The position numbers were made by a program, and so were the translations under genes. Below, piece after piece: positions 29,636 to 64,000 of a stretch of DNA of 64,000 nucleotides. The DNA comes from Bryum argenteum (lineage: Eukaryota > Streptophyta > Bryopsida > Bryales > Bryaceae): positions 43,730,420 through 43,794,419 of the forward strand of contig CM073321.1 of NCBI GenBank assembly GCA_037043015.1. Direction: 5' to 3'. The notes beneath the pieces are model-generated. The model was given only the letters and a program-made list of their open reading frames with translations. It was not told the origin of the DNA and made no database searches. The first letter of the stretch is position 1. Each line of letters starts with the position of its first letter.

Positions 29636-32460
29636 TTAGTCGAGAAATTCCGTAAGTGAATCTTTGATCACATTGATTTGTGTTGTCGGTATGGACATCT
29701 TCGGATTCATGGTACCGGAATGAAATCTTGGTTTCCAAGCTGTCGTAATGGAAGTAGTAGCCATCCAAATTGGTGGATACTTTGTGTCCATCAACCAAGA
29801 GTTACCTTTCTTTGTGTCCCACCCTTTGTAAGTATCAGGGTCCACATGTTTATAAGATGTTGGCTTCCAATACTCTAGCAAAATTGAATCAGGGTGCTCC
29901 ACACTATCATGAGGGTTGCTCAAAGCTCGGGCGATCCAAACCTTCTTAGTATCTTCATCAGCTGGACAAAGGGCAAGTAGATATCCCTCATAGCAATTGC
30001 GGATAACTCTAAATGACACGTTAGGACGGTCTCGCCTTTGTCCTACAAATGGAGGATCATTAGCAAATTCCTCAAGCAATTCTCCGTTGTCTCCAAATTG
30101 ATCCTCTTCACTCGGAGAGAACTTTGGTGTTGGCCAGAATCTATCCCTAAACGCAGAAGGAGTGGAAATAGGCAAGTCTAGAGTCTCGCGAATAGACTTC
30201 TAATAGTAAATAAATTGCTCGTGTTGCCTACAATAATCCCCAGATGGAACAGCATCCGCCAATGACTCCCACATGTTCACAAACCCACTGATGCCCTTAC
30301 GAATGTCGTCAATATTCCTCATCTCATTTGGAACCACCAATGTTGGCTCTCCAAGAGGAACCTTGAGTTGACCACTAGGTAATACTTTCCACAACCTAAT
30401 TCCAGCACTGTCTTTCGGGAGCCACTCACTATCCGTACAAAGAATTTTGTATTGCATAAGAGGCCAGCCGGATGTATCTTTGAAGAATTGGAATTGTTGT
30501 GCACTTGTATGGCCCGATAATGATTCGTCCCCATCACACAAGTAGCCTTCAAGAAAAGTCTTGAAGTTTGGAACTTCCTCAATCATGTGACGAATGACTG
30601 GCATTTCCTCCGTATCCATGAATGATTTCATGAGAAGGGGTACAGTGGGGTAACTCTTGCTCTTCAACTTATTGCTCCATTTCCCAAAAAGAGCGTCAAT
30701 GTCTTCATGAGTGTGCCCAACAATGAGGAAGTTCAAGTAAACTTCCCTAAAAACGCCCTTATAAAATAGAAGGGAAAAGAACGCAAATACGAATAGGTTC
30801 TTGTTAACTCTACATGCATTATTGAGCTGCAAAGGCAACATCGGTGATAGTGATTTAGCAGGGATTGGTGCCTCCGGTATAAGACCAAGCAAATCCAAGC
30901 AAATGTTGGCACCATCCAAAACTGCTTCAGAGAGGGGGCTAATCCTGCCTCTGATAAACAATTCCTTTGTAAAGCATTTTGGTGGAGATTCCAAATCTCT
31001 AAGTAGTTGAGCAAATGATCCAATCGTATGATTGGAATCCGTCGGGTAAATGTCAAGGCCATAATGTGCATAGCGTACGTCACCGTGCCCATGCGCAATC
31101 ATGCCCGTGATCGAAACCGGAAACTTCATAAAGGAATCTGTTGATTTGCTCTTGTGGGAGAATTGTGGAGAGGCAGTCTTTGAATGATCCATTTTGTCAT
31201 GTATAATACACAACTCCTTCTCTGGGTATGACTTTGGCGACTCGCGGTTGGCGTAGTACAATAGCCTATGCGACATTTGAGATGTGTTGTGTTTTTTGAA
31301 TCTGGCATTGTGAAGAGCCTATGCACGACTACCAGGCGTACTAGACGCTCGAAGTTGCTTGATCTTATCACGTTCACCACAACGAGCAAATGTGTCACCC
31401 TTTGGCTTCGCATAATACTCCAAGGAACTTTCTTGTCCTATTGTGCTCAAAGATGAATGCGATATGGGAGACAGGCCATTCGTGGCGTTCACGACATTCA
31501 CTTGTAGTAAGCTATCTCTCCAACGGTAGGAGGAGGGCAAGCATGTTGATACTACCTTCTCGCCTGTAGGAGTTGTTCTAGTTCAATGAGGCATGAGGTC
31601 GGCCGCATTTTCCACAATAGCCTTGAGGGTAGCACTTTCTTGCACCATGTGAATACGAGGCTTCTTGGAACCACGATTTCCATAATGGTTTGCTTGTGCT
31701 CCGTCTCGGTAAAGAGATCTGTACCGGGAGAACGTGGCCCATGAAACACCCATAATGAAGGCCCATGCAATGCAACAGACCTCAATACCCTCCAAGGTTA
31801 TCATATCGATTTTGTTTGTATTTTCATGGACTTGGCCATGAACGTCTAGGAAATGATGTTTTCTAAAGAAAACGTCTCTAGTCACATAGAATTGTGTCCT
31901 AAGATCTTTAATCTTTCCTCGATGGAAGGGCTGAACACAATTCTCCGAACAACAAGCTTTGGTTGACACATAGTTGATCGACGCAAATGTCAAGTGATAT
32001 TGTTTTTTTGGTGCTGAATTACGAGGACGCCTTTCACGGGTACTCTTGTACTCGCGAACGCCATTCCGAGGAGGTCTTCCAAATGACTTCATTGCTGCAT
32101 TGTATATGGCGCATTGGTCATGATCGTAAAGGGTGGCACCATTGAGAATGACACGTTTGATTGGCCATGCACGCAAGGAGTAAATCCATCCAAACGGAAC
32201 AACAGATTTCACCAAAGACTCTACTATTTGAACACAGACGAAGTCTGTGCCCAGTGGTCCACCATCTGTCTCCGGAACAAGAGTTTAGTCGACGGACCGA
32301 CACACCGCCCACATCGTCTCCACCTTCATTCAAGAGTGTGACTCGTTTGGACATCCAGGAGGATTGTCTAAAACCTTCACATTGAGCAACATCATTCAAA
32401 AGCACAAGAGGCCGAAAGTCCACACTATTGATGACAAAGTCACCCATTTTGCAAGCATTG
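29636..32460 (-). pseudogene. DUF7869-family protein, copy C (nonsense-broken)
   Basis: A diverged homologue of copies A and B. Landmarks: SSWMSKRVTLLNEGGDDVGG, CCSENCVQPFHRGKI, CIIHDKMDHSKTASPQFSHK, NFLIVGHTHEDIDALFGKW, and a C-terminal GWDTKKGNSW segment. From 32215 to 29636 the frame never shifts but contains three in-frame stops, at 31583-31585, 31319-31321 and 30200-30202; a frameshift lies upstream of 32215. One stop (30200) corresponds to a TGG Trp codon in copy A. Unlike A and B, no 27-bp palindrome lies nearby. It is bracketed by the long inverted repeat at 28.3 and 34.66 kb. Confidence 0.82.
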
Positions 32461-45577: not shown

Positions 45578-47564
45578 GCTCGAAACCTCGGTTCACTTGG
45601 AGCCGACGATGCACCCATGGAAATCGATGATGACGACGACGACGACCTCTCGATTCTGCCAACCGCACCTGTCTCAAGTTCTCCACCACCATCTCCGGCT
45701 GCACTGCCTAAAGCTCGAGGAAAGAAGAAGCGACGCAACGCTGCTGCGGACGATGTAGAAGATGTTCAACAACATTCCGGAGACATTGCTCCTCTTTAAC
45801 TCGAAGGTCTCCAGGAACCTGATCTTACTCAAACTTCACATGGTGCGACAGTCAATGTCGTTCGACGTGGTGCACGACTGACTCAGGTTTCCGGAGGTGG
45901 ACTTACGAATGCGGGATCCCCTCCCGTGTCCTTTACCGTTGACCACAACTCCCCGCGGTCGCCTCGCCGTCTCAGTCAGCCAAAATTCGCCAAACGCCCT
46001 CTTCCGAAACCCAATCACATTGGTAGCAGCTCGTCGTCGAAAATTACAGTCACTCTGCCTATGTATCTCAAGAAGGGCAACATTGGAGATTTGGTTCATC
46101 AATCGTCGAAGACTGCAAAATGGGATCCGCAAATCCTTGATATCATTGAGCACATCAAGAAGGTATTATTTCATGCATTAGTCATTTATAATCTTCTTAA
46201 TTACGTTTTGTAATCGTAAATCTATAAGCCACTATCTAATTATTGCCTTGTATTTCAGATTGGAAAAGACCGAAGGTACCCGTGTTCGGTGATGGAGTAT
46301 GATCCCAAGCATCCAGGGATTGATCTCATTTTTGAAGATGCTCCCGAGAACTTGCCTGTTCCGGGTGTGTCTCCAACAGAAATTCCTTCCTGGAACCGGC
46401 GTAATAAAAATTACTTTGAAAGTCTTTTTATCTTTGCCGCATACCACTTGACAGACGTTGGAGCGATTCTTCTGATGCATCCCAAATGTCGTAGAATTGA
46501 GCGTACTCTTGATTCCAAATCCCATATATATGGTTTTCGTGTTGTTCGGGATTGGTGGGGATATAATCCACTCCCAATGGCCTCTACCGTACCGCACCCA
46601 AAAGAGGTACGGAGCAATTTGTAGTCTCCATTCTCACAATTTATGATTAATGTCTTCTATGCTTTTATGTTAACGTATTTGTACTTGTGTTTTCCAGACT
46701 CACTGCTTCCATATCAAAGTTTATGTTCGTAAAGATTGTGTGTCGAAGTTCCAAACTCGGCAAGTGGCACATGCATACGCGGGTCTGGCAATCATACGGG
46801 ATGAGGAAGAGCACCTCTCAAACTTTGCAGACAAAGACACATTGCGTACTCGGCCGGACGGTACGCCATGGCGAGGCTTACGAGAGAAGGACCCCTCCTT
46901 CATTCAATGTTTTGTAGATTGTCTCACGGACGACGGGGGTATAGTCTTCGACTGGAGCGCAAGTACAGGTAACGTATTCGTAAACGCAACTTTAGAATAC
47001 ATTTCGGATTTATAGATCTCGAATTTCTTACGTGGGCTTCTGATTTTCTAGGTGCATCTGTAATTGCTTGCGCGCGCTCTAACCGACACCTCATCGCCAT
47101 GGAACCTGACGAAGAAATCTTTGATGGAGTACTAGCGGATTACAAGAATGGTCCTCCCGGTGATGAAGAAAGTGGAGAATCGGCCCCACCTGCAGATTAT
47201 GACTCTGACGAACCGCCCTTGAAGAAGCCACGGAAGTTTATTGGTGCGTAGTTACTTAGTCTATTTTTATATGAATATCCGTATTCTGCTCTTACAAATG
47301 TACTGTACTGACTTTTTTTGTACTTTTAGCATCGCAGGTCTGAAAGAGCGATTGACTCGCAACGCTCATCTCTACAATAGCCCTCCATCGACGTTCACTC
47401 TTCCTTCCTACGCTGAGCGTCTTGCTCAAGAGTTTGTTGAAGCTCCATCTCCCATCTTGTCTGACACTACACGTCTACGTTATAATAGTAGTGTGCTTAA
47501 GTATATAGACTTCGAGGCTGATGAGTGTGACTTGCACTTCAATGGTACGACACCTTCAGCGTAG
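45578..47564 (+). pseudogene. N4/N6 DNA methyltransferase-like gene, short copy (5' truncated)
   Basis: Homologous to the 3' half of the gene at 49.8-54.2 kb. Exons: 45578-46162, 46259-46606, 46698-46968, 47052-47243 and 47338-47564, with clean GT-AG sites. Internal exon lengths 348, 271 and 192 equal those of the other copy. The domain has beta-class order: DLIFEDAPENL (motif IV position, DAPE at 46337-46348 instead of DPPY), a FAAYHLTDVGAILLMHP strand, then VFDWSASTG and VIACARSNRHLIAMEPDEEIF (motif I, SAM-binding position). An Asp-run and proline-rich segment precedes it. TAA at 45797-45799 interrupts the first exon; everything after is open. The 5' end abuts DUF7869 copy B, so the ParB-like part is missing. 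Catalysis is doubtful given DAPE. Confidence 0.75.
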
Positions 47565-48160
47565 TATGTGCTTTGTTTTTTGACAGGTGCTCGACTTGGT
47601 AGCGCCATGTATTCGTGTTGCCATAATATACTCTTTATTTATATGTTTTTGAAGTCGGTATTGAATTATTACTTATCGTGATTATCGCTGATATCTAAAC
47701 ATACACTAATTGGTTCACGAAAGAAAATACTCAACAATGGAAATGATGACGTCAGCCCTAATTCTAAATTTCTAATGGAAAAACAATACTCCAAATTAAA
47801 TGTCGCTGAATAGAATATAATCCTAATCCCGCAATTCAAATAAAAGTGTGTAAAAAATAAAAAACTATATCGAGAGACAATGGTGACCTCCAATTTCATA
47901 TGATTTTGGAACGATGACGTCAGCCCTAATTCCTACACGACAAGAAAATACGGGGCCAAATTTCGCTCCTTAATGATCTGTAAAATGGAGCGATAATCAC
48001 ATTCACATGGAAATAGGAACTAAATCCACGGATTTGGGGTACTCAATTGGACAAAAGTAATCTTTACAAATTTTAAAAACGCTTAAATCAATGGTCATAG
48101 GGTCCCTATCTTTCACAGAATTTTTTAAAAATGTTCTAGTCCACCGATGCCATCTTGGAC

Positions 48161-48891
48161 CTCACCGCTCACCGCTCACACCTCTACATTCCCCATAGGA
48201 CATCCGGCATATCCTTTCTCAGATTGACCAGAAATTAACGTATATGTAGGATAATCATTGATTGTCCATATTAGCATTCCACGCATTTTGAAATTCCGAT
48301 TTGGTCCAACTGGTTCAGACATGTCTACAGCATCAACCCCCATCCACAGTTTCTTCAATTCATGTACTAGAGGCTGTAAATATACATCAATCGTCGCCTC
48401 AGATGGAGAACTCGGCCCCGGTATAATCATAGATAAACAAATGAAGAAACGTTTTGTAAGTAGGTACGGCGTAAGATTGTATAACACTATCATGACGGGC
48501 CAAATGGAATGCCTGGAAGACTGTAGACTATGTGGGTTTACTCCATCTAGCGCAAGGCCCATTCTAATATTTCTGTCCTGCTTGCTAAAGCTAGGGAATC
48601 CTTCTTCAATGAATTGCCATTGTTCACTATCAACCACTGATTTCATTTTCCCGTCATGTGAATGATTTTCTTCGTGCCATCTCATATGTTTCGCTAGTTC
48701 CGGAGAACGGAACATCCTTCTCAATCTTTTTATGATTGAAGAAAATTGCAAAACTTTAACGGAAACATTACTTGACCCTGGGATATACCTACATTTATGG
48801 CATTCAGGACATGCATCTAGGTTGGCATTTTCTTTTCCAGTACAAGGTTTTCCTAGAAGAAACCACCGGTGTGAGCGTTGAGCGGTGAGCG
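48161..48891. repeat. Inverted CTCACCGCTCACCGCTCACACC pair around tnp2 fragment
   Basis: The left copy at 48161-48182 and its reverse complement at 48869-48891 (one mismatch) bracket about 690 bp of tnp2 sequence. Related GCTCACGGCTCATGGCTCACCGCTCACACC sequence lies at 15473-15511 beside the SWIM fragment. Confidence 0.85.
48183..48868 (-). pseudogene. CACTA transposase (tnp2/Transposase_21) fragment
   Basis: Minus strand encodes MRWHEENHSHDGKM, FSKQDRNIRMGLALDGVNPH, SIWPVMIVLYNLTPYL, IIPGPSSPSEATIDVYLQPL and MLIWTINDYPTYTLISGQS, all conserved landmarks of the plant CACTA tnp2 transposase. Only about 230 aa of the central domain remain, with both ends missing. It is exactly enclosed by the inverted CTCACCGCTCA repeats, as if carried as cargo. 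It could not be functional alone. Confidence 0.88.
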
Positions 48892-49819
48892 GTAAAGTTT
48901 GAGCGGTAAGAAAAAAAAAATTGAAGTTAATGGCCCTATTACCATGGAATGGGTGGTTCTGAAATTTTGAAATGGTCATTTTTAGGCATAAAAGCACCCA
49001 AAACCGTGGACATAGGTCATACAATATTTCATAAATTATCCACACATGCAAGTTTAAATAAACGTTAATTAAATTATGGGCCGGCATCATCATGTGTAAC
49101 CAATACAATTCAAATCATATCCAAAATATAAACTGAAATTAGGGGTGACCCATTTAGGTAATCAATAAGTATAATTTATCGATATTAAGATTTAGAGACT
49201 ATTTAGGGCTGACGTCATCAATTTCCTATTACACTTGTCAGAATTATATGTAAATGCTTCGGTTTATATAATCTGAAATTTACAACTACAGGTCGTCTTT
49301 CCGTTTCTCCTTGTAAGGTGTAGAGGAAGACATTCGCGTGGCGTTGTAGTGGTCCGAGTTCGATTCTCCTTGGCCTTGTTTGAGCGTTGCACTGCGTCTT
49401 GAAGCCGCTATCCTGAGCTATACAAATACTGGATTGTAGCCCCTACCAACATTGGCAAGATTCAATCACTCCAAAGGAAATAAAAAAAGACCTTCTCAAA
49501 CTTTTAGTCTGCATTGAATTTTACACTTAAACATTTACATACACCGATGCATTGAAATTGGAGTTGAAGAAGATACATCAAAATTAGGGCTGAAGTCACT
49601 ATTAAAGGCAAGCATGGCTATAGATTACATTGTATTGAGATACTTAGAGTAATACTTGAAGCACTTAGTGTAGGTTAAGCTATAAAAGCTAATCACAATA
49701 AATAAATATATAAAACCATATATATTGAAAAACACAAATACATAGTATAGCTGTAATAGATGAAGGTAAACGAATACTCTAGTACCATGTCCAGTACCTA
49801 TCAGAAAACAAATCTCACC

Positions 49820-52800
49820 CTAGGCAGAAGGTGTAGAACCATTAAAGTGCTGATAACACTCATCAGCCTCAAAGTCTATAAACTTAAGCACACCATTGGT
49901 ATAACTCGACGTGGAGTGTCAGACAAAATGGGAGATGGAGCTTGAACAAACTCTTGAGCAAGACGCTCAGCGTACGATGGTAGGGTGAATTTTAATGGAG
50001 GGCTCTTGTAGAGATGAGCGTTGCGAGTCAATCGCTCTTTCAGACCTGCGATCCTAAAAGTACAAAGAAAGTCAGTCCTACCGATTTGTAAGTGTGTAAT
50101 TTAAAATTGAGAAAGAGAATAGAAGATGTAATTACGCACCAATGAACTTCTGTGGCTTCTTTACGACCGGTTCATCAGAATCATAATCAGCGGGAGGCGC
50201 TGATTCTCCACTTTCCTCATCACCGGGAGGACCATTCTTGTAATCCGCTAGTACACCATCGAAAATTTCATCGTCAGGTTCAATTGCGATGAGGTGTCGG
50301 TTCGAGCGCGCGCAAGCAATCACAGATGCATCTAAAAAAATCAGAAGCCCACGTTAGACATGAAAAATGTATAAACGAATTCTATTGTAGAGTTGACGGT
50401 AACATTACCTGTACTTGCGCTCCAGTCGAAGACTATACCCCCGTCGTCCGTGAGACAATCGATGAAACATTGAATGAAGGAGGGGTCCTTCTCTCGTGAG
50501 CCTCGCCACGGCGTACCGTCCGGACGATATCGCAAGGTTTCTTTCTCTGCAAAGTTACAGAGGTGGTCTTCCTCATCAGGTACGATTGCCACACCCCCGT
50601 ATGCGTGTGCGACTTGCCGAGTTTGGAACTTCGAAATATAATCTTTAGGAACATACACTTTGATATGGAAGCAGTGAGTCTGCAAAACACAAGTACAAAT
50701 ACGTTAATATAGAAGCATAGAAGTAAATATTAATGAATCGTGCAATTGGAAACTAGAATTTGTTCCGTACCTCTTTTGGTTTGGGTACGGTAGAAGCCAT
50801 AGGGAGGGGATTATATCCCCACCAGTCTCGAACAAGACAAAAACTATATGTATGCGACTCAGAATCGAGAGTACGCTCGATTTTACGACATTTGGGATGC
50901 ATCAGAAGAATGGCTCCAACGTCCGTCAAATGATACGCGGCAAACACGAAGAGGCTCTCAAAGTAGGTTTTCTCCCGCATGTTCCAGGATGGAATTTCTG
51001 TTGGAGACACACCCGGTACAGGCAAGTTTTCGGGAGCATCTGCAAAAATGAGATCAATTTTTGGATGCTTGGGTTCATACTCCATCGCCGAACATGGGTG
51101 CTTACGGTCTTTGCCAATCTGAGATACAAATCAGAATTTAGATAGTGGCAAATAGATTTACAAGTAAGATTTGTAAGTAGGGAGATTATAAATGACAAAT
51201 GTAAGAAATCATACCTTTTTGACGTGCTCGACGATATCGAGGATTTGCGAATCCCATTTTGCAGTCTTCGAGGACTGATGAACCAAATCTCCAATGTTGC
51301 CCTTCTCGAGATACATTGGCAGAGTGACTAAAATTTTTGACGACGAGCTGCTACCAATGTGATTGGGTTTCGGAAGAGGGCGTTTGGCAAATACTGGCTG
51401 GCTGAGGCGACACAAGGACTGCTGAGAGTTGTGGTCAACGGTGAATGATTGAGGAGGGGACCCAACATTCGTAAGTCCACCAGTAGAAAGTTGAGTTAGT
51501 CTTCCACTGCGTCGATTTGCATTGTTTGTCGCTCCCTCTGAAGCCTGAGTCAGATCAGCATCTTCTGGCCCTGCAATGTCCTCTGGGGAGGAGCAATATC
51601 TTCCAAGTCTTCGTCTACTTCAACAACAGGCTCTGCAACAACGTTGCGACGCTTCCGGTTTGCGCGAGGCTTGGGCACTGCAACTGGTGAAGAAGGAGAA
51701 GAGATTGGATCGGATGCGACTGGTATAATGGATAGGTCGTCATCGTCGTCGTCGTCAATCTCCATTGGTGCGGAGTCAGCAGGGTTTGAAGCCAGGTTTC
51801 AAAGAAGATGCTTCTCCTCTTTGTGCACGTAGTTGTCGTCGCACTCTAAGAACCATCCACCGGTCGTCAATTGCGAGTTTGTAAACCGCTCTTGTTGGGC
51901 TGAGGAGAAAAAACTGCGGGGATCATTCGTCACTGCAACGTCCTCGAACTCCATTGGAATGGAAAACGAAGGTAATGCTCCCTTGGCAATGAGTTCCTGT
52001 TTTAAATACCTACAACAAATTGAACAAATTAGATAGGGAAAATTGAGTACGTTGATCCACTTTCAATAATATTTAGTAAGAAATGAAATACATACCGGAA
52101 TAAAAGTCGCTTAATTGTAGCTTTGCCTCCAGTAATCTTGCGAAGATCCGAGCCTTTAATGAACTTCGAACTTGCAGTTGGAGCAAGATAGTTTCCGAAT
52201 GCCTTCTCCCATAAAAGCAAGCTCCACTTCTCGATATATGCAGATGGCTTTAGGACAACACTAGACCACTCAATATTGAGGTTCTCGTTGTCTACCAGAT
52301 TCTGCAATTCACTTTCAAGTGATTGCTCAAGCTGAAAATACAGGAGACATGTTAGTATTAAAAGTAACATATAATCTCAAATAATGTAATCACAGAACGA
52401 ATATGCAAGTTACCTGTGCCCAAAGAGAAGCACGATGTAGAAATGAAACCAAAGCTTTGTCTTCCATCGGGCGTTCCTCTTGGAATCGAAATGAACGTCG
52501 AACTTTGTTTGGTGAGTTCCACCACTGTAGCCACTTTGCCTTGAAATCAAAGTGAACATTGCTAGTGGCTACCATATGTAAGCGTTCAAGCGTCATGTCG
52601 GGTTTCATGTTTTGGCTGTAATGAGAATTAATCTACATATCGGAATCACAGTTTTGATTAGTGCAGTTGAACGTAAAGTCAGAAAAAGTGTCATAAATCG
52701 CGGTACCCAGGCAGCAATACCTCTCTCGCAAAGACTTTCCTGAGTTTGATATTGGCCACCGCGACCATTTTGTCAAAATTCTTGCCACGTATTACTTTGA

Positions 52801-54165
52801 TTTCAGCCTTGATGGCGTTATCCATGGCACTCTATACTCCCGGTCCAGTTTGTTTATCTTTTGGAACCGTGGCGTAGTACGTAGCTTCAGCATCGTCGGA
52901 TTTTTTCGCTAACCTCCTCTATAAAACAACAAGAACACAAATGAGAAGTTGTTACAGGTAAATTTGAAGAAAAGGAGTCGATAACATTTATAGCGAACGT
53001 ACCGCGTATAGAAATTTTACAAAAACGTCTATTGTCACAGGATACCACGTCTCTTTTTTTGCTTTGGCGTTCTTACAGATCCTGTAATCTTCGGGAGAAA
53101 TGAGGTCTTTGAAATCTTCGAGTTTCAATTTTCCAAACTTCCTCATGCGTTGCAGTTTCGCACACAAACTGTCTTCGACATGATCATGTTCAGTGGACCT
53201 ACAACATAGAACGAAAGATGAGAAAAATTGTATATGACACAATCATAAAAGAACATGATATTAATGAATGACGCATTTCCTTACCAGTTTATGTCGTTCA
53301 TAGCATCAAGGAGAAGATTGCTTTCTCCACGAGCATCGAGTACGATGCAGTCAACCGAAATGTACCACGAGGGATCAATCTTGTGGTATCTCTCGATATG
53401 GCGCATCCACGCTGTAACACGGTGGTTACCTTCGTAGACATAGAAATATTTGTCACAAAGGCTATGAAGATCTGGATCGGACCGCAGCGTACTCTCGAAC
53501 TCTTCATTGGCGGCTTTCCAAAGCGGGTTCGTCCAAAGTACATCTTGACTGTCAACGGTTCCTTCTCGGCCTTTTCTATCAAAGGGAGACACGTACATTA
53601 CCCGATCGCCTTTGCGGTAGCCTTTGTTGAACTCATTCTCCAGTTTACGGACGTCTTGTTCAGAGGTCGGCCGAACCTTCGGATAACAGACGAGGCGACA
53701 AAGTGGAATTAGCATACGAGACTTCTTAACAGGTTTGTAGCGTAACCTGTTGATGATTGCTATCGAATCACTCTTGTGGAGCATTCGCATCTCGTTAGCA
53801 CTCCATGCGGGGTCCTTGTTTTAAAGATGTGTGGGCATGTGAATCATTCCAACGTTGACACCTTCAGACAATGTAGATTCTTCATCATCCGAGAGGGATT
53901 GGTGTCCATCATGGTCTTGCGTTGGTAGGTGAATATCTGCAGCTTCAAGAGGATCGTCACTTGAAACTGCATTGCATTCGCCTTCCACAAGTTGGCGATC
54001 AGTTTCCGAAGGACTCTCTTGCAGAACTCCACTTCTGAAGTCATCAACATTTCTCACACTATCAAGTATGAGTTCATCTCCGACGGAAGGTACAGTTTGT
54101 GGAGGATTAAGATGAGGCGGGATCGCTTCTTCATCTGGAATGAGATGGTCTTGAGCTATGCTCAT
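49820..54165 (-). pseudogene. ParB-like / N4-N6 DNA methyltransferase-like fusion gene (long copy)
   Basis: Ten exons with GT-AG sites: 54165-53285, 53198-53003, 52918-52721, 52632-52414, 52331-52096, 52009-51215, 51118-50771, 50679-50409, 50331-50140 and 50045-49820; about 1190 codons. Exon 1 has an acidic leader, then a ParB/Srx-like domain: RPTSEQDVRKLENEF, and YEGNHRVTAWMRH (GNHR at 53430-53419). The middle 400 residues are unrecognised. The C-terminal domain follows beta-class methyltransferase order: DLIFADAPENL (DAPE 51040-51029), GAILLMHP, VFDWSAST, VIACARSNRHLIAIEPDDEIF. Defects: TAA 53821-53823, TAG 52832-52834, TGA 51799-51801, a frameshift near 51590, and a 1-base deletion near 49880. 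ParB-methyltransferase fusions are known from phages and bacteria. Either a pseudogene or an unusual multi-product locus. Confidence 0.72.
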
Positions 54166-54305
54166 CTGGAAATCCAAGAAATCAAATACAACACACCACA
54201 ATAAGCATAAGATAGTATAAAATGAATAATAATATATAAAAAGTAGTACATAACCTTATTGTAACTTAGTATATGCTAAACATATCATATAATGTTCCGA
54301 TAAAA

Positions 54306-54640
54306 CTAAGGAGATTGCATCTTCGCAGCAAGTCGCGGAGAACGTCTAGGTGCAAGTCTAGCAAATTCCTTTTCCTGGAGACGACGAGCTTTGGCCTCAT
54401 GCCTTTTTATTCGCATGTTAACAGCTCGTGCAACCCGATCAACGTCAACACTTAAAGTGTGACGGACAGGAGAGGCAGAAGGTGGCGTTTCCGGAACCGA
54501 AGACAATGCTACAACTAATCGACGGGACTCCACTATAGCCAACACATGGTCTCTCAAAGCGGAGAAGTCGCTATCCGCATCGGATTCCACTTCTGTTTGA
54601 ACTCCATGTAGCTTCAAAGGATCTTGCAAAAACACCACAA
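54306..54640 (-). other. Exon-like ORF upstream of the ParB-like gene
   Basis: An open frame of about 110 aa preceded by an acceptor-like TTTTTGCAAG. It contains SDADSDFSALRDHVLAIVES and a basic end (RRLQEKEFARLAPRRSPRLA) before a TAG. It could be the last exon of a separate basic protein or a 5' exon of the ParB-like gene cut off by a stop. Satellite DNA begins just upstream. Confidence 0.4.
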
Positions 54641-54879
54641 TCCCAACAATCAAATACCAAACAACGAAAACCTAACCCAAGGAAAAACTAAACTAAACTT
54701 AAGAATTCACGTTTCATCAACCATTTCAGAATGAACCATCTAATAAAATATTAGAACTCAAAACGCACTCAACAAGGACGTTTCCAGGCTCAACAAGGAG
54801 CTTAATCGGCGGGTAAAGGGCATATTCCAGCCTCATTGCCGAACCCACAAGCACGATTCGCACCCTCTGAATGAGATGT

Positions 54880-57650
54880 TGGTCCCCCCCACAAGCCCAA
54901 GAGCTCATCAATGACCCAACAGAGCAACCAACAAATAATAAAGAAAAAAATCGACAGTTGAGTCGGGCGAGAGTCACCAAAAAGCAAATACAATCGAACA
55001 CAATGTCCACAAGGCTGGGAACCGAGCTCAGCAAGCTGCTTCATAGCCCGGCCTCAGAGCGGGCTCGGTCTGGTTTCAAACACTACGAGCACGAGCTCTG
55101 TTTGCAAGAGAGCGTGGCAGCCACCCCCACAGCGAGCCCAAGAGCTCAACAATGTTTCAACAGAGCAACTACCAAGTGATTTGAGTAAAAAAAATAAGAA
55201 TTTGATCGCACAAGTGTCAGACTTGCGTCGACGCAAGTCTGACACTTGTCCGATCAATTCCAAATACCAAAACCACCATTCCACATTCAAGCATCCAAAA
55301 AAGCACATCCAATTGAACACGAAGTCAACAAGGCTGGGAACCGAGCTCAGCAACTGCTTCATAGCCCGGCTTGAGGGCGAGTTCGGTATGGTTTCCACCA
55401 ACACGAGGACGAGCTCAATGTGCACGAGCTCAGCAAGGTGCTTCATAGCCCGGCTTCAGAGCGGGTTCGGTCTGGTTTCAAACACCACGAGCACGAGCTC
55501 AGTCTGCAAAGAGCGTGGCAGCCCCACCCCCCCCCCCGCAAGCCTGTGAGCTCAACAATGTTTCAAAAGAGCAACTAGCAAGTGATTTGAGAAAAAAAAT
55601 GAGAAATTGATCGGACAAGTGTCAGACTTGCGTCGACACAAGTCTGACACTTGTCCGACCAATTCCAAATTCCAAAACCACCATACAACATTCAAGCATC
55701 CAAAAAAGCACATCCAATCGAACACAAAGTCAACATGGCTAGGATCCGAGCTCAGCACCGCGAGCCCGCGACCTCAACAATGTTTCAAAAGAGCAACTAG
55801 CAAGTGAATTGAGAAAAGAAATGAGAATTTGATCGGACAAGTGTCAGACTTGCGTCGACGCAGGTCTGACACTTGTCCGACCAATTCCAAATTCCAAAAC
55901 CGCCATACAACATTCAAGCATCCAAAAAAGCACATCCAATCGAACACGAAGGCTACAAGGCAGGGAATCGAGCTCAGCAACTGCTTCATAGCCCGGCTTC
56001 AGGGCGGGTTCGGTCTGGATTCAATCAACACGCGCACGAGCTCAGTCCGCACGAGCTCAGCAACTGCTTCATAGCCCAGCTTCAGGGCGGTTCGGTCTGG
56101 TTTCAAACACTTCGAGCACGAGCTCAGTCTGCAGAGAGCGTGGCAGCCCCTCCCCTCCCACCGCGAGCCCGCGAGCTCAATAATGTTTCAAAAGAGCAAC
56201 TAGCAAGTGAATTGAGAAAAAAAAATGAGAATTTGATCGGACAAGTGTCAGACTTGCGTCGACACAAGTCTGACACTTGTCCGACCAATTCCAAATTCCA
56301 AAACCACCATACAACATTCAAGCATCCAAAAAAGCACATCCAATCGGACACGAAGGCAACAAGGCTGGGAACCGAGCTCAGCAACTGCTTCATAGCCCGG
56401 CTTGAGGGCGAGTTCGGTATGGTTTCCACCAACACGAGGACGAGCTCAATGTGCACGAGCTCAGCAAGGTGCTTCATAGCCCGGCATGAGAGCGGGTTCG
56501 GTCTGGTTTCAAACACCACGAGCACGAGCTCAGTCTGCAGAAAGCGTGGCAGCCCCCCCTCCCCACCGGGAGCCCGCGAGCTCAACAATATTTAAAAAAG
56601 AGCAACTAGCAAGTGATTTGAGAAAAAAAATTGAGAAATTGATCGGAGAAGTGTCAGACTTGCGTCGACGCAAGTCTGACACTTGTCCGACCAATTCCAA
56701 ATTCCAAAACCACCATTGCACATTCAAGCATCCAAAAAAGCACATCCAATTGCACACGAAGGCCACAAGGCCGGGAACCGAGCTTAGCAACTGCTTCATA
56801 GCCCGGCTTCAGGGCGAGTTCGGTATGGTTTCCACCAACACGAGGACAAGCTCAATCTGCACGAGCTCAGCAAGGTGCTTCATAGCCCGGCTTCAGAGCG
56901 GGTTCGGTCTGGTTTCAAACACCACGAGCACGAGCTCAGTCTGCAGAGAGCGTGGCAGCCCCCCCCCTCCCACCGCGAGCCCGCGAGCTCAACAATATTT
57001 CAACAGATCAACTAGCAAGTGATTTGAGAAAAAAAAATAAGAATTTGATCGCACAAGTGTCAGACTTGCGTCGACGCAAGTCTGACACTTGTCTGACCAA
57101 TACCAAATTCCAAAACCACCATTGCACATTCAGGCATCCAAAAAAGCACATCCAATCGGACACAAAGGCAACAAGGCTGGGAACCGAGCTCAGCAACTGC
57201 TTCATAGCCCGGCTTCAGGGCGAGTTCGGTATGGTTTCCACCAACACGAGGACGAGCTCAATCTGCATAAGCTCAGCAAGCTGCTTCATAGCCCGGCTTC
57301 AGAGCGGGTTTGGTCTGATTTCAAACACCACGAGCACGAGCTCAGTCTGCAGAGAGCGTGGCAGCCCCTCCCCCACCGCGAGCCCGCGAGCTCAACAATG
57401 TTTCAACAGATCAACTAGCAAGTGATTTGAGAAAAAAAATGAGAATTTGATCAGACAAGTGTCAGACTTGCGTCGACGCAAGTCTGACACTTGTCTGACC
57501 AATACCAAATTCCAAAACCACCATTGCACATTCAAGCATCCAAAAAAGCACATCCAATCGGACACGAAGACAACAAGGCTGGGAACCGAGCTCAGCAACT
57601 GCTTCATAGCCCGGATTCATAGGCTGTTTCGGCTTGTTTCAGACACCAAG
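54880..57650. repeat. 405-bp satellite array with a 40-bp palindrome in each unit
   Basis: Seven palindromes start at 55210, 55615, 55837, 56241, 56647, 57053 and 57455: spacings 405, 222, 404, 406, 406 and 402 bp, so one unit carries a deletion of about 180 bp. The palindrome half is ACAAGTGTCAGACTTGCGTC followed by its exact reverse complement, perfect in four copies and with one change in the others. Each full unit also contains two diverged copies of CTTCATAGCCCGGCTTCAG-type sequence, an A-run of 7-9 bases, and a C-run of variable length. A diverged partial unit lies at 54880-55020. Open frames of up to 240 codons cross the units because 405 is divisible by three. Confidence 0.95.
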
Positions 57651-58055
57651 AGCACGAGCTCAGTCTGCACGGGAGCCTGGCCAATCCCACGCGAGCCCGC
57701 GAGGTTACCGACGATTCAACAGAGGAGACAGAGCCCTCGTGCTCAGCGAGGATTCAACCGAGCGGACAGCTTCCTCGAGCTATGCGACAACTCTGGTCAA
57801 GGAGCTAAACCCGCTTTCTCATCACGCTTCTGAAGAAGGGTCTAAGAACAAACAGGGACACGGCGGGAAGATCGATTGCAGAAAAAGTGATACCATTTTA
57901 CGGAGGACACCTACTTTCAAAGCCTCGGCATCTGCGACACATTGACAGTGTTTGCAGGAAGCTGCCACTTCTCTAGAAGTCTCTCTACGAATTAGGGTTT
58001 TCATATATCATTCAATCTTAGGTATCAGTAAGATTTGTGGAATATATACCTTGAA

Positions 58056-58243
58056 ACCTCTGGAGTACAACGCCTCCAATCCGCTCTAGTCTTGATTGCT
58101 TCTCCAGGAGCATATTGATGCGACCTGTAAAATTCGGCGAAGAGACTAGACTCTGAAGTATTCGAACTCACATTTTCCAAGGCTTCTTCCACGTGCACTC
58201 CAGCTCCTCCCGTTGCCACCTCTATCTCGACCGAATTCGCCAT
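58056..58243 (-). CDS. Hypothetical first exon (MANSVEIEVATGGAGVHVEE)
   Basis: Minus-strand ATG at 58243 with a normal-looking N-terminal sequence and a possible GTATAT donor after TTTCAAG near 58056. The downstream exon is uncertain (perhaps from about 57972). No family is recognised and it lies between satellite and minisatellite DNA, so it may be a fragment. Confidence 0.3.
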
Positions 58244-58589
58244 TCTCTCTTCTTCCTAGAATTTTTTGACAACACTCAAACGCCTCATCAAAATGCAACC
58301 TCTCATGGTATGTAAACTGAGGATCCCATTTTGTCAGAAAACTCTCATCACTGATTCTATTTTTAGTGTAATGCCGCCGAGCGCTTCGGCGATCCCTCCC
58401 TGCATCGGCGTATCTAAATGGAACATGACGACAAGACGCGACGAGAGGCAGAGCTGGGTCCAGCGATTCCTGCCGCACCGGTGTGCCGGCGACATTGGGA
58501 TTTCGTCGGAGGAGGAGCTGGCGAACTTCCGGAAGGGAGCGGGCTTCGGCTACAAGCGCCGACGAGCGGGCTTCGGGGACTCAAGTCAA

Positions 58590-58885
58590 TGCGTGGGCTT
58601 GGGTCCTGTTACTAGCGAGCGGGATTGGGTACTGCTACCGGCAGCGCGGGCTTCGGCTCCCGGCTGGGCGGGCTTAGGGTAGAGATACCGGCGGGGGGGT
58701 TCGGGTACTGCCACAGGCAGCATGGGCTCCTACGGGCTGGGCGGGCTTGGGTACTGCCACTGGCAGCGCGGGCTTTGGGTACTGCCACCGGAGGGCGGGC
58801 TTCGGGTACTGCTACCGACAGGCGGGCTTCGGATACTGCTGCACTGGCAGGGCGGGCTTCGGGTACTACCGTAACCTTATACACC
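58590..58885 (+). repeat. GC-rich ~27-bp minisatellite
   Basis: About ten imperfect units of GGCGGGCTTCGGGTACTGCYACCGGCAG. The frames are open on both strands for compositional reasons only. Confidence 0.85.
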
Positions 58886-59241
58886 CTCATGGGCATGCCG
58901 GCCCCATGGGCGTGCTTGGCCCATAGGCGTGCAGTCCCCCTTATACTAGCCCCATTTGCAATTGAATTATTTTTATTCCCTATGTATAAAATACTGTACA
59001 CTGTATAACATATATACTTTATTACATAAAAAAATTTATACATTAACTTCAATATCATTGTCATTAGTCACATATTCTGAAGGTACGAACTTCGGAGCCA
59101 AAATTTCCGAATTGGATCCGGCAAGTAGGAGTTTACGACCGGAAACATGAGACACTATTTTCACTATAAAATCACAATAAAAGATATTCTGAATCTTGGC
59201 TCCGTATATGTCATGCAATTATATCATGTCAAATGTCCAAA

Positions 59242-59976
59242 CTACATCGAATTGAAGAATGAATTCTCGTTGATTGTATACTTAACCAACCCTAGGTCCT
59301 CCCAGTAAACCAAGAAATAGGGTTTCTCGTGTACCTCCTCTAATTCTTCAGCACTTGTCTCAAATCCATCCTTTTCCTCATCTTGTGTTTCCAGAGGATA
59401 AGAGGCTTCTGCTCTTCCGCCCGTATCTGTGACTCTTTTCTCCTCAAACATTGCTGCTTCATCCTCTGATCGCTCATCTTCCTCTTCCGATCCTCTGCGA
59501 CCCTGACGACAACACATGGTAATCTTGATTCATATATGTATCCAGAAATAGTTTGACCTTTACGAATATTAAAATAGTTGTAAAATAATCTGCTTCATTA
59601 CCTCATGTGTAGAGTCCACACCTCCATTGTCATCCCCTTCCACGAAATCAAACCCGCTAGACGTCCTGAAATGCCTTGTACTCCCTTCTTCCTCCTCTGC
59701 TTCAGCTTCGTCAGTCTCGACACTCTCGGGAACACTGTCGAGGTTGAGCGTTCGCATCTTAATAGTCCGCCTAAATGGCGGTAGCACATCGTCGTCGATT
59801 AGAATATCGTACCCGTCCGGCTCTCGATCATCGCCGCTACAGCTTCTCCCATCACGCTTCCGCAAAGCACTACGCCTTTGTGCTTTAGAATTAGTGAACT
59901 TCGTTCCTCCCCTTCGCTTCTTCTTCTTCTGACCTATGTCCTTTCCTCTCTCACTACCGCTAGCGGTTTCGTCCAT
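59242..59976 (-). CDS. Two-exon hypothetical charged protein
   Basis: Exon 1 59976-59602 and exon 2 59502-59242 join in phase 0 (ATGAG|GTAATG donor, CGTCAG|GGTCGC acceptor), giving about 211 aa. The N-terminus is Lys/Arg-rich (GQKKKKRRGGTKF, nuclear-signal-like). The middle has FRRTIKMRTLNLD, then acidic runs (EAEAEEEEGS). The C-terminal exon is Glu-rich and ends PYFLVYWEDLGLVKYTINEN. I do not recognise a family. Met at 60015 adds 13 residues and is an alternative. Frame and splice sites are intact, so it may be a real gene; a region of 0.5 kb separates it from the divergent MULE-like gene. Confidence 0.5.
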
Positions 59977-60506
59977 GCTGCTTGTTTGAAGATAACTTAT
60001 CACACGTTCTACCAAAAGAGTCCAGGAGTTCTCACTGCAAATGAAGAGGTTGGACTACTGTTTTCAACTCCATTATATGAGATCCCACGTGTGGCTAAGA
60101 AACCCTAATCAGCGAACGCGTATTTCCTAACATACCGCTATGACCGTGTCTGACAATCCATAATAAGTTATCTTTTAAACGTATCTAAAATCCAACGCAT
60201 CTAATTATCTGACAATGACGGCCGCCGTCACTTTACCTTCTACACCTACTTATTTTATCGAGGGATCTAATATTTTTAATCCAAACCATTTAATGCAATT
60301 ATGTCAGTCCAAATATTTTAAGCATTATAAGTAACGTGCTTTCAAATTATCTTGCTCACGATTAAGAGTATCACGTACCTGTACAAATTTTTAATATGAA
60401 ATTTCGTCTAGTAGGTATTCAATACGTATACAAAAGGCCTACACCAATTCTTTGTATTTGAACATTCGAAACGCACCTCAGACTCTCTTTCTCTGCGCAC
60501 TTGTTG

Positions 60507-63500
60507 ATGTTGTCTTCCTCGCCTGCGTCTATCATGGCATCCTCCGCTCCCCTACCTCCCGCTCCAAACGTCATTGCCATTAGGTCTGAAGACATAAGTC
60601 CCCCTATCTGCATTCCTCTGGGGTGGATGGAGTGGCAGAAGTCACTCCGTCCTGGCTAGCAATTCGTTTCGGGTTTGATGAGTCCTCTCTATGGTTAGAG
60701 AAACATGTCTTGGATCCAAACTCAAATCTTGTTCAATACTCCGTCCTTGTTGAACCAGTCGACCTAGAGAGTAATTGTAAAATGTATAAGCTACAGCCTG
60801 GACAATATCGACTCTATGGCCTGACAGAGTCCGTCATGAACGCCTCCACCGTGCTCCTCACTCCTCGTAGTTCTTCTACCATCTCCACAATTGTTCCAGT
60901 TCTTGCTCTTGTCAAGGTCGAACCCGGACTCGAAGTCCGTATTAAAATTTTTGATTCATCCGACGATGAAAGAAAAGCGTCCATCCAGTCTTGCCGACTA
61001 TCATCGAATTTGCCACCCCCTCCTATGAATTTGAACAGAGTCTCAGAACCACCCCCTCTCCTCTTCCCGCGTCCAAAGTCGTAAAACTTAAAAGCATTCT
61101 TTCCTCGCTCCGTAGACTTGGTAGTATGTCTCGCAACAAAACTATACTCAAAAAAATAGATTTCCATTCCATTCGTACTCACAGCGTCTCTTTCCTGCCC
61201 CCCACTTTCAATGGTGATGTCCTGTACATTTTACCTCCCGTTCTACCAACTACTGCTGTCAAGGTAGCCAAATCTATGGACGGGATGGATAAAAGATACG
61301 ACGGTCATGTGTGGACGAGGACAATGACTACTAACATCAGTAACAACCTCGGTTTGTCATTCCGCTACTCTAATTGTGTAGGTCATCTTCAATGCCACAA
61401 TGAGAACTGCGGCTTCTTGCTACGACCTGACCGCAGAGCACAAGTCAATGAGGTGGAGTTTGAGGGCTTTACCAAGGACCCGTTCTCTGTCGGCCACGCG
61501 CCTCCTCCTTCTTCAACACTGGTCTGTAAGATCTGCAAAGAACCTCCCATCTGTGTTGCACTATGCCCTTCTAAAATATTTTACGTATTCGGAGAGGAGA
61601 GTCAAGAGCGGGCGTGTGTGCATATCGGTACCCACGAACATCCTGTCAAAGTCGGAGACTACAGATGTGCACGTAAAATAATTGATGAGTTAATAGAGGA
61701 GCATGTAGAACGTAACCCACAAGCTACCACGTCCAAAATAGTCATGGAGGCCAGCAAGGGCTTACTCGGAAACTTACTTTTCCGTGAAGAAGGTAACCCT
61801 GTAACCTCCAAGCTCACCCTCCATGAGCTAGAACCTATCTTCGATCAGTGTAAAGAGCTGAACTCTCCGAGCGTCAGAAATCGTATTACCACTTTTAAGC
61901 ACTTGCGTAGATACGGTGTTCTTGATGGGATCACCAAGCTTCGAGGCCTCAGCAACTGGGCTTACATCCAACGTAACCAGTTCCCCGGCCAAGGAGATGA
62001 AAGTGACAAACTGTTCATTTTCAAGATGTCCGAGGTCGGCCCCGGAAGCGGTGTTGACCTTGTTCGTCGAATGCAATCCGGAGGCGACCTGTCCCATGCG
62101 TGGATGATGTTCGACCACGTCAAGCGTGTCAAGAACTGGACCACCATGGCGTGCCACGTTTATGACTCAAAAATCTACCGCATTCTAACTATTGCATGTT
62201 GTGATTTCCAGTCTGAAGACGGAGAAGCTCAAATCGTCTTTTGGAAGAACCTAAACCACGTCATGGGCAGGAACGGAGTGGAAGCACCGCAGTTTAAAGG
62301 GTTCATGGCCGACAGTGCGCAAGCCAACTGGAACGCTGTGCGGATCATTTACGGCTCCGGAGACCCTAAAGTGCCTATGGAAGGCCGCGAGCGGACTTGC
62401 TACTTCCATTGGACGCAATCTCTAGAGAAACACACCAAACAATATGTCGTGCACGAGCTGCAAGATCAACATCGACATCTTTGTAAACAATACAAAGATG
62501 CACGTACCATGGCTGAGGCGGAGACAAGATACTGGGCGATCCGAGCGTGGTGGGCGTCGGCACAGGCCACCTCCGACGTTGGATTAGGTCACCTCGAACA
62601 CTGGCTTGCATTCTGGCATTTCCGATATAGGCAGTGGGGTGGCTTCATGGAATTGGTGAGTCACAGTAACTGTAGCAATTATGTAGAGGTGCATGTAAGT
62701 CTAGTATCTCTGTAAAATTTATTTACTTTTTCAGTATAGAATATTCTACTTTTTTGAATTTTTCCAGTAACAATTATCTAAATTTTTTTTATTAAAAAAT
62801 CTATTTTTAGATCAGACTTGCGGTGCAGCAAGTCTAACCCGCTCTAGATGTTGTGATCAACTTCTTTTGTTACTAAGTCAAAAGTCTTTGCACCTTGCAG
62901 GAAAATAAATATTCTGCGGAGGAGTTAGCGGAGATGCCTTCATGTAACCTTGCGGAATCTATCCATAACAAATGGTTACAAGCGTCCGGCAACAAGGGTG
63001 GGGACTTGAACGTTGCAGCTGTTGATGATTATGTTCGTGCTTTCCTCCAAGTAGTGGGTTACCACAACTTCAACAGAGGTGGCAAGGGTGGTAGTGGACC
63101 AACATCCGAAGAACTATTGCTTCGTGTTGCCCATAAAGCTCAACGAACCGGCGATCCATCAGGCCTCACAAAGGCAGTTTCTGACTATCTAGGAGCTGAA
63201 AAGATTTGTACCCGCGACGCTCACCTTGAAGGGCTAAGGTGTTTGGATCCTAGAAATGTAAGGCTCATGCTCCAATTGGAGCTGATGATGAAACGCATAG
63301 ACCTGACACCGTGAGCTACTCACGTCCTCGAATTGGGAGAAGGGTTACTCGAGCATGTGCTGAAAATCTGAGTACTATCCATGAAGAGGATGAAGTTGAG
63401 GAACCACCGACTAAACCATCCACTTTTGTTGGACGTAGTATTGAACGTGTGACCGCTGTTCAGGAGACTAAAGTAGACGAGAGGTTTTGGCACATTGCCC

Positions 63501-64000
63501 GTTTGAGGGAGAATTCTGCCAAGGCTTGTTGGGGTATCATGCAAAAGAGTAAAAAAAGATGTGACTCACAAATTATTCAAAAGGGGAAGGCGACCGCAGC
63601 TCCAACTTACACTGGAGTATGGCAGCGCCCTCAAGAACGTCAAAAAAAAACTGATCAGTTCTTTTTTTGTGCGGATGATATACAGAGGTGTGTTGTGGGT
63701 CATCGTCGCAAGTGGATTGAGCCATTCTCTCTAAGCCAGGAAAGACCCCCTATTTCTTCAATATGGCATGTAGGGACTAACCTTACACGTGATGAATTGG
63801 AGGCATTTGAGAATAGGGATTTTGACTACCACAAAAACAACAGCTTCCTATGAATCGCACTTTCAATAATGTTGCCCCACCAAGAGACTTGTCCCATATT
63901 CCAGTCCCTGAGAAGCCGGACGTGTTCCCTAGGTCAAGGAGATCGAAGAACATGAAACGCATTCTAGCTATGACTTCAAAGCACATAAAGAATATTGAGT
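60507..64000 (+). pseudogene. MULE-like transposase-derived gene, frameshifted, runs off the window
   Basis: Starts at 60507 (MLSSSPASIMASS, PICIPLGWMEWQKS), then needs frame changes near 60650 (to LAIRFGFDESSLW), near 60990 (to LPTIIEFATPSYEFEQSL), near 63310 (to SYSRPRIGRR) and near 63835 (to MNRTFNNVAPPRD). The long frame to 62654 holds a Cys/His cluster (GHLQCHNENCGFLLR, VCKICKEPPIC) and a transposase-like core (KGFMADSAQANWNAV, RTCYFHWTQSLEKH). A GTGAGT donor at 62655 and a CTTGCAG acceptor join the exon starting 62902 (ENKYSAEELAEM, CNLAESIHNKWLQ). The family looks like plant MULE-derived proteins known to me mainly from bryophytes; that is memory, not a search. Four frameshifts argue for a pseudogene, though each is a single-base event. 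Confidence 0.65.
62814..62835. repeat. Palindrome in the MULE-like gene intron, resembling the satellite dyad
   Basis: AGACTTGCGGTGCAGCAAGTCT has 8-bp arms identical to the inner AGACTTGC/GCAAGTCT arms of the 40-bp satellite palindrome, around a different 6-bp centre. Confidence 0.7.

Follow-up and report, generated by a model that had tools for sequence, protein, structure and literature searches.

A 64,000-nucleotide stretch of the genome of the moss Bryum argenteum (GenBank assembly GCA_037043015.1, contig CM073321.1, positions 43,730,420 to 43,794,419 of the forward strand), referred to below as the window, holds a ten-exon gene with a ParB-like first exon and a methyltransferase-like C-terminal half. 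This gene is part of a large DNA transposon with defined ends, 10-base-pair (bp) target duplications and a transposase. Judging from the sequence, we consider it slightly better than even (probability about 0.52) that the gene is an accessory gene of a large Mutator-like transposon, and that its protein reads the element's own palindromes and keeps the element expressible. An earlier note on the same DNA had depicted an intron-rich plant gene that had spread as part of a mobile or duplicated locus. Mobility was borne out by the element ends, the 10-bp duplications and the transposase, and the notion of a plant gene, in the sense of a host gene, was given up for that of a transposon gene with more than 1000 candidate places.

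With their GT/AG borders and in-phase splicing, the ten exons put forward in the earlier note hold together as an intron-rich gene on the minus strand, running from 54165 to 49876 in the spliced translation, and these exons recur across the genome. The two strings of exon 1 that had been read as a ParB pattern, RPTSEQDVRKLENEF and YEGNHRVTAW, are both present in the window copy. In what follows, L-numbers (L001, L074 and so on) refer to fetched loci, G000 to the genome holding the window, and C1, C4 and C7 to contigs of that genome. The exons are:

53285..54165, minus strand: exon 1, ParB-like, with the GNHR box at about 53420; in-frame TAA at 53823-53821 in the window copy
53003..53198, minus strand: exon 2, from the spliced translation
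52721..52918, minus strand: exon 3; in-frame TAG at about 52834-52832 in the window copy
52414..52632, minus strand: exon 4, from the spliced translation
52096..52331, minus strand: exon 5, from the spliced translation
51215..52009, minus strand: exon 6, acidic linker; stop at about 51801-51799 and frameshift between about 51619 and 51550 in the window copy
50771..51118, minus strand: exon 7, methyltransferase-like, with a degenerate motif IV (DAPEN)
50409..50679, minus strand: exon 8, methyltransferase-like, with the first part of motif I
50140..50331, minus strand: exon 9, methyltransferase-like, with the rest of motif I and the next strand
49876..50045, minus strand: exon 10

The window copy of the gene is broken, with in-frame stops in exons 1, 3 and 6 (three in all) and one frameshift in exon 6; the TAA of exon 1 falls directly ahead of the ParB-like stretch. 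Among the listed places on contig C1, all 14 same-strand pairs less than 6 kilobases (kb) apart have exon 1 and exon 7 separated by 2682 to 2713 bp, and from the reading phase and this constant spacing we infer that the ParB-like and methyltransferase-like halves belong to one transcript. The predicted protein, about 1,170 residues long, would carry the ParB-like domain at its N-terminus, followed by a long middle region, an acidic linker and, in its C-terminal half, a methyltransferase domain that is probably inactive. Loci L033 and L034 were considered as processed (spliced) copies proving a single transcript, and were rejected: they only looked intron-free, their introns being kept and other deletions being present.

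Searches covered a genome of 258.8 Mb in 25 contigs, including the window. Exon 1 yielded 1190 candidates, and all of the best 150, which were scored and include the window copy, match at 82 to 100% identity, 128 of them showing no stop within the matched stretch when inspected by eye. The methyltransferase exons yielded 2052 candidates, of which 142 were scored. This recurrence of the exons across the genome, together with their constant spacing, is far beyond chance. Both the neighbouring transposase gene and the presence of the exons at 150 of 150 scored places led us to reject an ordinary host gene. Exons 1 to 5 were without stop, gap or truncation in 17 of the 30 copies fetched by exon 1, as were exons 7 to 9 in 13 of the 28 copies fetched by exon 7, the fetched copies being best protein matches and not a random sample. 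Within this set, the gene is under purifying selection, with a median ratio of nonsynonymous to synonymous substitution rates (dN/dS) of 0.072 for exon 1, 0.089 for exons 2-5, which were not part of the selecting match though linked to it, 0.122 for exon 7 and 0.180 for exons 8-9. As a separate observation, contig C1 makes up 17% of the genome but holds 62 of the best 150 exon-1 places and 59 of the best 150 transposase places; it might be rich in repeats or a sex chromosome.

The limits of the element, its terminal repeats and its transposase exons were located as follows:

48856..64000 plus 2289 bases past the window end (locus L074), no strand: transposon copy 1, 17,434 bp, with both ends and the target duplication located
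48846..48855, no strand: 10-bp target site duplication, left copy; the right copy follows L074:2289, with 9 of 10 bases the same
48856..48895, minus strand: terminal inverted repeat on the side of the ParB-like gene; the inner 27 bp (GTGTGAGCGTTGAGCGGTGAGCGGTAA) are common to both ends, the outer 13 bp differ; holds 7-bp repeats
60970..62712, plus strand: transposase exon A; its first part, about 60590-61081, lies in another frame in the window copy
62877..63850, plus strand: transposase exon B, frameshifted in the window copy; runs on into L074 with the CxCx(n)CxH motif

Past exon 10, homology stops exactly at ...CGCTCACACCGGTGGTTTCCCC in four of six fetched copies, and the window element ends in the same sequence with two bases changed; the opposite end reads ...CGCTCACACGGTAGCAACGTCC in four copies. 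The terminal inverted repeats are alike only in part (27 bp shared, outer 13 bp unlike), and their motif, made of ACCGCTC repeats, is different from the palindrome described below. A genome search with the element-end pattern gave 120 forward and 133 reverse matches at up to 2 mismatches, and none with the reversed control. In all four copies read at both ends, the target duplication is 10 bp long, three being exact and that of the window copy having one mismatch. Element length was measured in two copies (17,434 bp in the window, 14,598 bp in the other), and stretches homologous to copy 1 were found in L069 and L070 at about 96% identity. The window element lies within another element's transposase gene, of the tnp2 type (PF02992, E 9.2e-49), as indicated by the empty site.

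The transposase gene diverges from the ParB-like gene and has one open stretch of about 735 codons and another of about 485. It yielded 1168 candidates in the genome, the best 150 of which were scored and all match at 86 to 100% identity. Pairing the best 150 exon-1 places with the best 150 transposase places gave 57 head-to-head pairs within 20 kb, no converging pair and 4 same-strand pairs, as against an average of 1.2 head-to-head pairs, and a maximum of 5, in 1000 random placements of the transposase places (rounded sizes being used for four contigs). Mutator-like transposases are characterized by a C/H-rich finger, a D...D...CxxH core and a SWIM-like motif. These three features were recognized by eye in the transposase, the last as CxCx(n)CxH; the structure model was poor. 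According to a published account (PMC6446971), Mutator-like elements generate duplications of 8-11 bp, a range that includes the 10 bp found in four copies here, and often encode SWIM motifs. The resemblance to Mutator-like elements in general extends to the size of the duplications, the terminal inverted repeats, a candidate SWIM-like transposase motif (here by eye) and the presence of extra genes; the differences lie in a transposase without Pfam match, inverted repeats that are only partly alike and lengths of 14.6 and 17.4 kb (two copies). We call the element Mutator-like on anatomical grounds and not on the strength of a profile match.

Between the two diverging genes lies a tandem array whose repeats carry a spacer-less palindrome with a 22-bp core, AGACTTGCGTCGACGCAAGTCT. 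The window array contains seven cores, four of them exact, and a variant occurs within the transposase intron:

55023..57671, no strand: tandem array, unit 406 bp, between the two diverging genes
55219..55240, no strand: palindrome core, exact
55624..55645, no strand: palindrome core, 1 mismatch
55846..55867, no strand: palindrome core, 1 mismatch
56250..56271, no strand: palindrome core, 1 mismatch
56656..56677, no strand: palindrome core, exact
57062..57083, no strand: palindrome core, exact
57464..57485, no strand: palindrome core, exact
62814..62835, no strand: variant palindrome in the transposase intron, 4 mismatches, central

The same core was found despite other repeat backbones in further subfamilies, namely in L071 (8 sites) and L073 (5 sites). 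Allowing up to 6 mismatches, 29 of 30 copies have it in the 1.5 kb upstream of the exon-1 match, 18 of them in exact form. Genome-wide, 703 sites were detected at up to 2 mismatches, and none with the reversed pattern. On the listed part of C1, 10 of 21 palindrome clusters have a listed element hit no more than 12 kb away, against 1.6 expected. Symmetry appears to be kept when the sequence changes: across 26 of the 29 sites (leaving out the cut-off site of L024, L009 as a near-duplicate of L008, and L020, which is the same as L017), 17 of 25 symmetric position pairs were changed on both sides. The covariation score of these 26 sites was 0.237, counting G-T as a pair (strict counts were made separately), compared with 0.123 for shuffled sites (none of 500 shuffles reaching the observed score) and 0.056 to 0.081 with slid partners. 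In the element spanning L011 and L072, the array site AGACTTTCGTCGACGAAAGTCT and the intron site AGACTTTCGGTGACGAAAGTCT, 5.3 kb apart, carry the same change on both arms, at positions where the window and L070 have GC. L025, L027, L029 and L031 encode proteins alike by eye and carry other palindrome variants; since sites and protein sit on one element, co-occurrence of their variants is expected from linkage alone. The palindromes can reach up to 62 bp (window 55202-57502; L012, L013, L021 and L030), with outer arms that are symmetric and of arbitrary sequence.

Judged by fold homology, the C-terminal half is N6/N4-methyltransferase-like (PF01555 type). The profile search for an S-adenosylmethionine (SAM)-methyltransferase fold, proposed in the earlier note as a check, was positive: the family profile reached a probability of 98.7% with the sister family of loci L001 and L002 (pairwise E 2.8e-16) and of 90.7% with four phage enzymes (pairwise E 1.2e-6, in an alignment of 56 columns spanning the SAM-binding motif), versus 0.2% in a control comparison with an unrelated profile. 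Profile comparisons with partly assumed residues gave near-identical numbers. The sister family passes the PF01555 cut-off (E 1.9e-7) and hits phage DNA methyltransferases in a tblastn search (E 3e-4, best 10 of 390 records). Direct Pfam matches of the methyltransferase half are weak and under the cut-off (E 0.0093 to 0.04). Other Pfam matches, such as TAZ1_RBM, Leader_Erm and SGNH, were judged to be due to chance. Methyltransferase landmarks, said to occupy the last five exons, do occur in the right order and are found in exons 7 to 9; motif IV among them is degenerate. Motif I reads DWSASTGAS or close, with the second glycine present in 24 of 26 readable copies and replaced by D in the window copy and in L061; the codon for this glycine or D is split across exons 8 and 9. 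At G000 C4:20498341 (L001) and C7:9878472 (L002), the sister family displays a better-preserved methyltransferase, with D-T-P-F and TASTG (motif I DLTASTGAS), and, by eye, a similar stretch upstream of it. For the origin from a prokaryote or large virus, also proposed in the earlier note, the results are these phage matches of the sister family, a viral-contig scan that found no close relatives of the ParB-like exon, and plasmids in which none appeared up to E 10.

This homology leaves room for an alternative in which the enzyme is active and puts N6-methyladenine or N4-methylcytosine on the palindromes (centre GTCGAC), marking the element as silencing-exempt or ready to move. Beyond the fold itself, this would agree with the second glycine of motif I, retained as in the sister family, and with the TCGA of the palindrome centre, a plausible methyltransferase substrate. 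The catalytic motif of N6/N4 methyltransferases is (D/N/S)PP(Y/F/W), and their motif I has a glycine loop. Here, however, of 32 readable exon-7 matches, 31 show D-[A/V/I]-P-[E/K/Q]-N at motif IV and one shows HAPEN, without the D (a 33rd match is out of frame); the aromatic residue is replaced by E, K or Q in all 32, none of which has the catalytic motif, and the first glycine of motif I is replaced as well. Because the aromatic residue is lost in every readable copy, the methyltransferase half is probably catalytically inactive, and an active enzyme seems unlikely to us. The domain is kept (dN/dS 0.12 to 0.18), so that SAM binding would be possible and catalysis doubtful. The nature of the N-terminal half is also disputable, since the GNHR box might be a coincidence in an unrelated domain that does not have the ParB/Srx fold, which we regard as a substantial minority chance. 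The box is seen in every exon-1 match that covers this part (30 of 32, the remainder being fragments), and PHROG 1033, a 'ParB-like' partition protein, matches 10 of 10 copies (best E 0.0013), these copies being closely related and not independent. The predicted order, strand, helix, strand-GNHR-helix, strand, helix, comes from a low-confidence single-sequence model (pLDDT, a predicted local accuracy score, of 38) and fits the fold, and a bacterial ParB-methylase fusion is on record (PMC5512222). The GNHR box, the predicted order and the PHROG match lend the earlier claim of a ParB/Srx fold weak support; the other tests did not sustain it. No ParB family was found among the Pfam or NCBIfam matches of the 10 copies, the hhalign probabilities were 1.6% for YbdM-type and 0.7% for phage ParB domains, neither significant, and in a further ParB comparison the exon-1 sequence ranked 134th among 1487 scored sequences, the others being its own shuffles. 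The exon-1 model had no fold match in the PDB at E 0.001 or better, and exon 1 had no sequence match there. The ParB-like exon had no close relative in the viral-contig scan and none among plasmids up to E 10; among phages, only two records appeared, at E 3. The ParB label is suggestive and, on balance, the likelier reading of this domain.

Under the reading that we favour, the element-encoded protein would recognise, as a dimer, the clustered spacer-less palindromes between the diverging genes and in the transposase intron, and this recognition would keep the element expressible by local antagonism of silencing, as VANC for VANDAL, or by direct transcriptional control. Anti-silencing, transcription control and partition-like clustering are all conceivable outcomes, which sequence cannot tell apart; we propose that the protein binds the palindromes, with anti-silencing or regulation as the result. 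A more specific version, to which we give a minority chance, is a module of ParB-parS type: the ParB-like protein, joined to an inactive methyltransferase, would load on the element palindromes and protect or activate copies in trans. The element would then have arrived independently at the principle of VANC, using parts of prokaryotic style. The arrays could instead be transposase sites, serve replication or excision, or fold into a cruciform, with an unrelated role for the ParB-like protein. Outer arms that are symmetric with a variable sequence are what would be expected if structure matters, and a variant site does lie within the transposase intron. Strong conservation of the 22-bp core argues against this, as do the terminal repeats, to which a transposase would be expected to bind, with their different motif; we find the idea rather improbable, if a little less so than an active enzyme. 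That the gene is a captured host or foreign gene, carried as passive cargo with no function for the transposon, is very improbable: Mutator-like elements tend to pick up host gene fragments (PMC6446971) and the window copy is itself broken, but low dN/dS, intact copies and the constant association with the transposase speak against it. Besides the ParB results given above, several observations weigh against the favoured reading. Selection of the copies as best protein matches biases both dN/dS and intactness; transposase exons A and B have no Pfam family up to E 10; and no DNA-binding fold was revealed in the protein. Palindromes could equally serve the transposase or a host factor, those of L014, L027 and L029 are not fully symmetric, and symmetric outer arms of arbitrary sequence are unexplained by a simple binding site. 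In L022, one of the 30 copies, no palindrome was found in the 1.5 kb upstream. Of the C1 clusters, 11 of 21 lie more than 12 kb from any listed element hit, the lists being a small part of the candidates, and 1 of the 10 close to a hit has it on the unexpected side. Among six fetched element ends, that of L065 is diverged and that of L068 was not found.

To our knowledge, few transposon-encoded factors that counter host silencing have been described, and such factors show how selfish DNA escapes epigenetic control. If the favoured reading is true, the moss element would add a second, unrelated anti-silencing lineage with its own palindromic target code, that is, a case of convergence and a new sequence-specific DNA-binding module, and would show ParB and methyltransferase parts of prokaryotic style at work in mobile DNA of a eukaryote. 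As predictions go it is an easily tested one, involving one protein and one 22-bp palindrome. In the ParB-parS systems of bacteria and plasmids, the ParB gene adjoins several copies of a perfect spacer-less palindrome. Here too a ParB-like gene adjoins several such palindromes, with the differences that the palindrome is longer, the ParB fold putative and the binding predicted; no ParA was seen in the element, with no search aimed at it. As described in PMC5512222, Bacillus cereus Bce_0392 is a ParB-methylase fusion whose ParB domain nicks DNA. The moss protein resembles fusions of this type in joining a ParB-like domain to a methylase of the adenine type, and differs from them by its eukaryotic setting, ten exons, long middle region, degenerate motif IV and very many transposon-borne copies. 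The nearest working model is VANC of Arabidopsis, an anti-silencing protein that attaches to short motifs lined up in the tandem repeats of VANDAL non-coding DNA and induces a loss of DNA methylation there (PMC5735166). Both systems consist of a Mutator-like element with a transposase and an accessory gene, and in both, short motifs that differ between families are piled up in non-coding tandem repeats; motif arrays in element non-coding DNA, varying by subfamily, were indeed found here. In contrast to the palindromic core of the moss element, VANC motifs are 8 or 9 bases long and non-palindromic, as far as the same source states, and the accessory protein here has ParB-like and methyltransferase-like parts. 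General Pfam scans named no VANC-type domain, no VANC sequence being compared directly. No description of such an element was found in the open-licence literature, and the accessible part of PMC12695648 contains no mention of ParB or moss. Accessory genes of Mutator-like elements are already known; as far as our searches of the open-licence literature reach, the gene type and the palindromic target code are new.

Other features of the element and its surroundings complete the picture:

45611..48194, plus strand: second copy of the same gene with an element end, diverged, truncated and facing copy 1; 81% identity over 2131 bp (45611-47717), end read by eye
54306..54671, minus strand: small basic open frame of the element; the region recurs in other copies, and no Pfam match is better than E 0.13
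59242..59976, minus strand: small acidic gene of the element, probably of two exons; borders read by eye, first exon without Pfam match

Elsewhere in the window, two DUF7869 proteins (8249-10300 and 30203-31318; E 5e-39 and 1.8e-39) probably belong to another mobile family, and a DUF659 match across two frames at 18036-19708 (E 5.4e-19 and 1.1e-6, the latter below the cut-off) is probably a decayed hAT-like element. An open frame with a CCCH zinc finger at 25163-26170 (E 8.6e-8) is probably an ordinary host gene.

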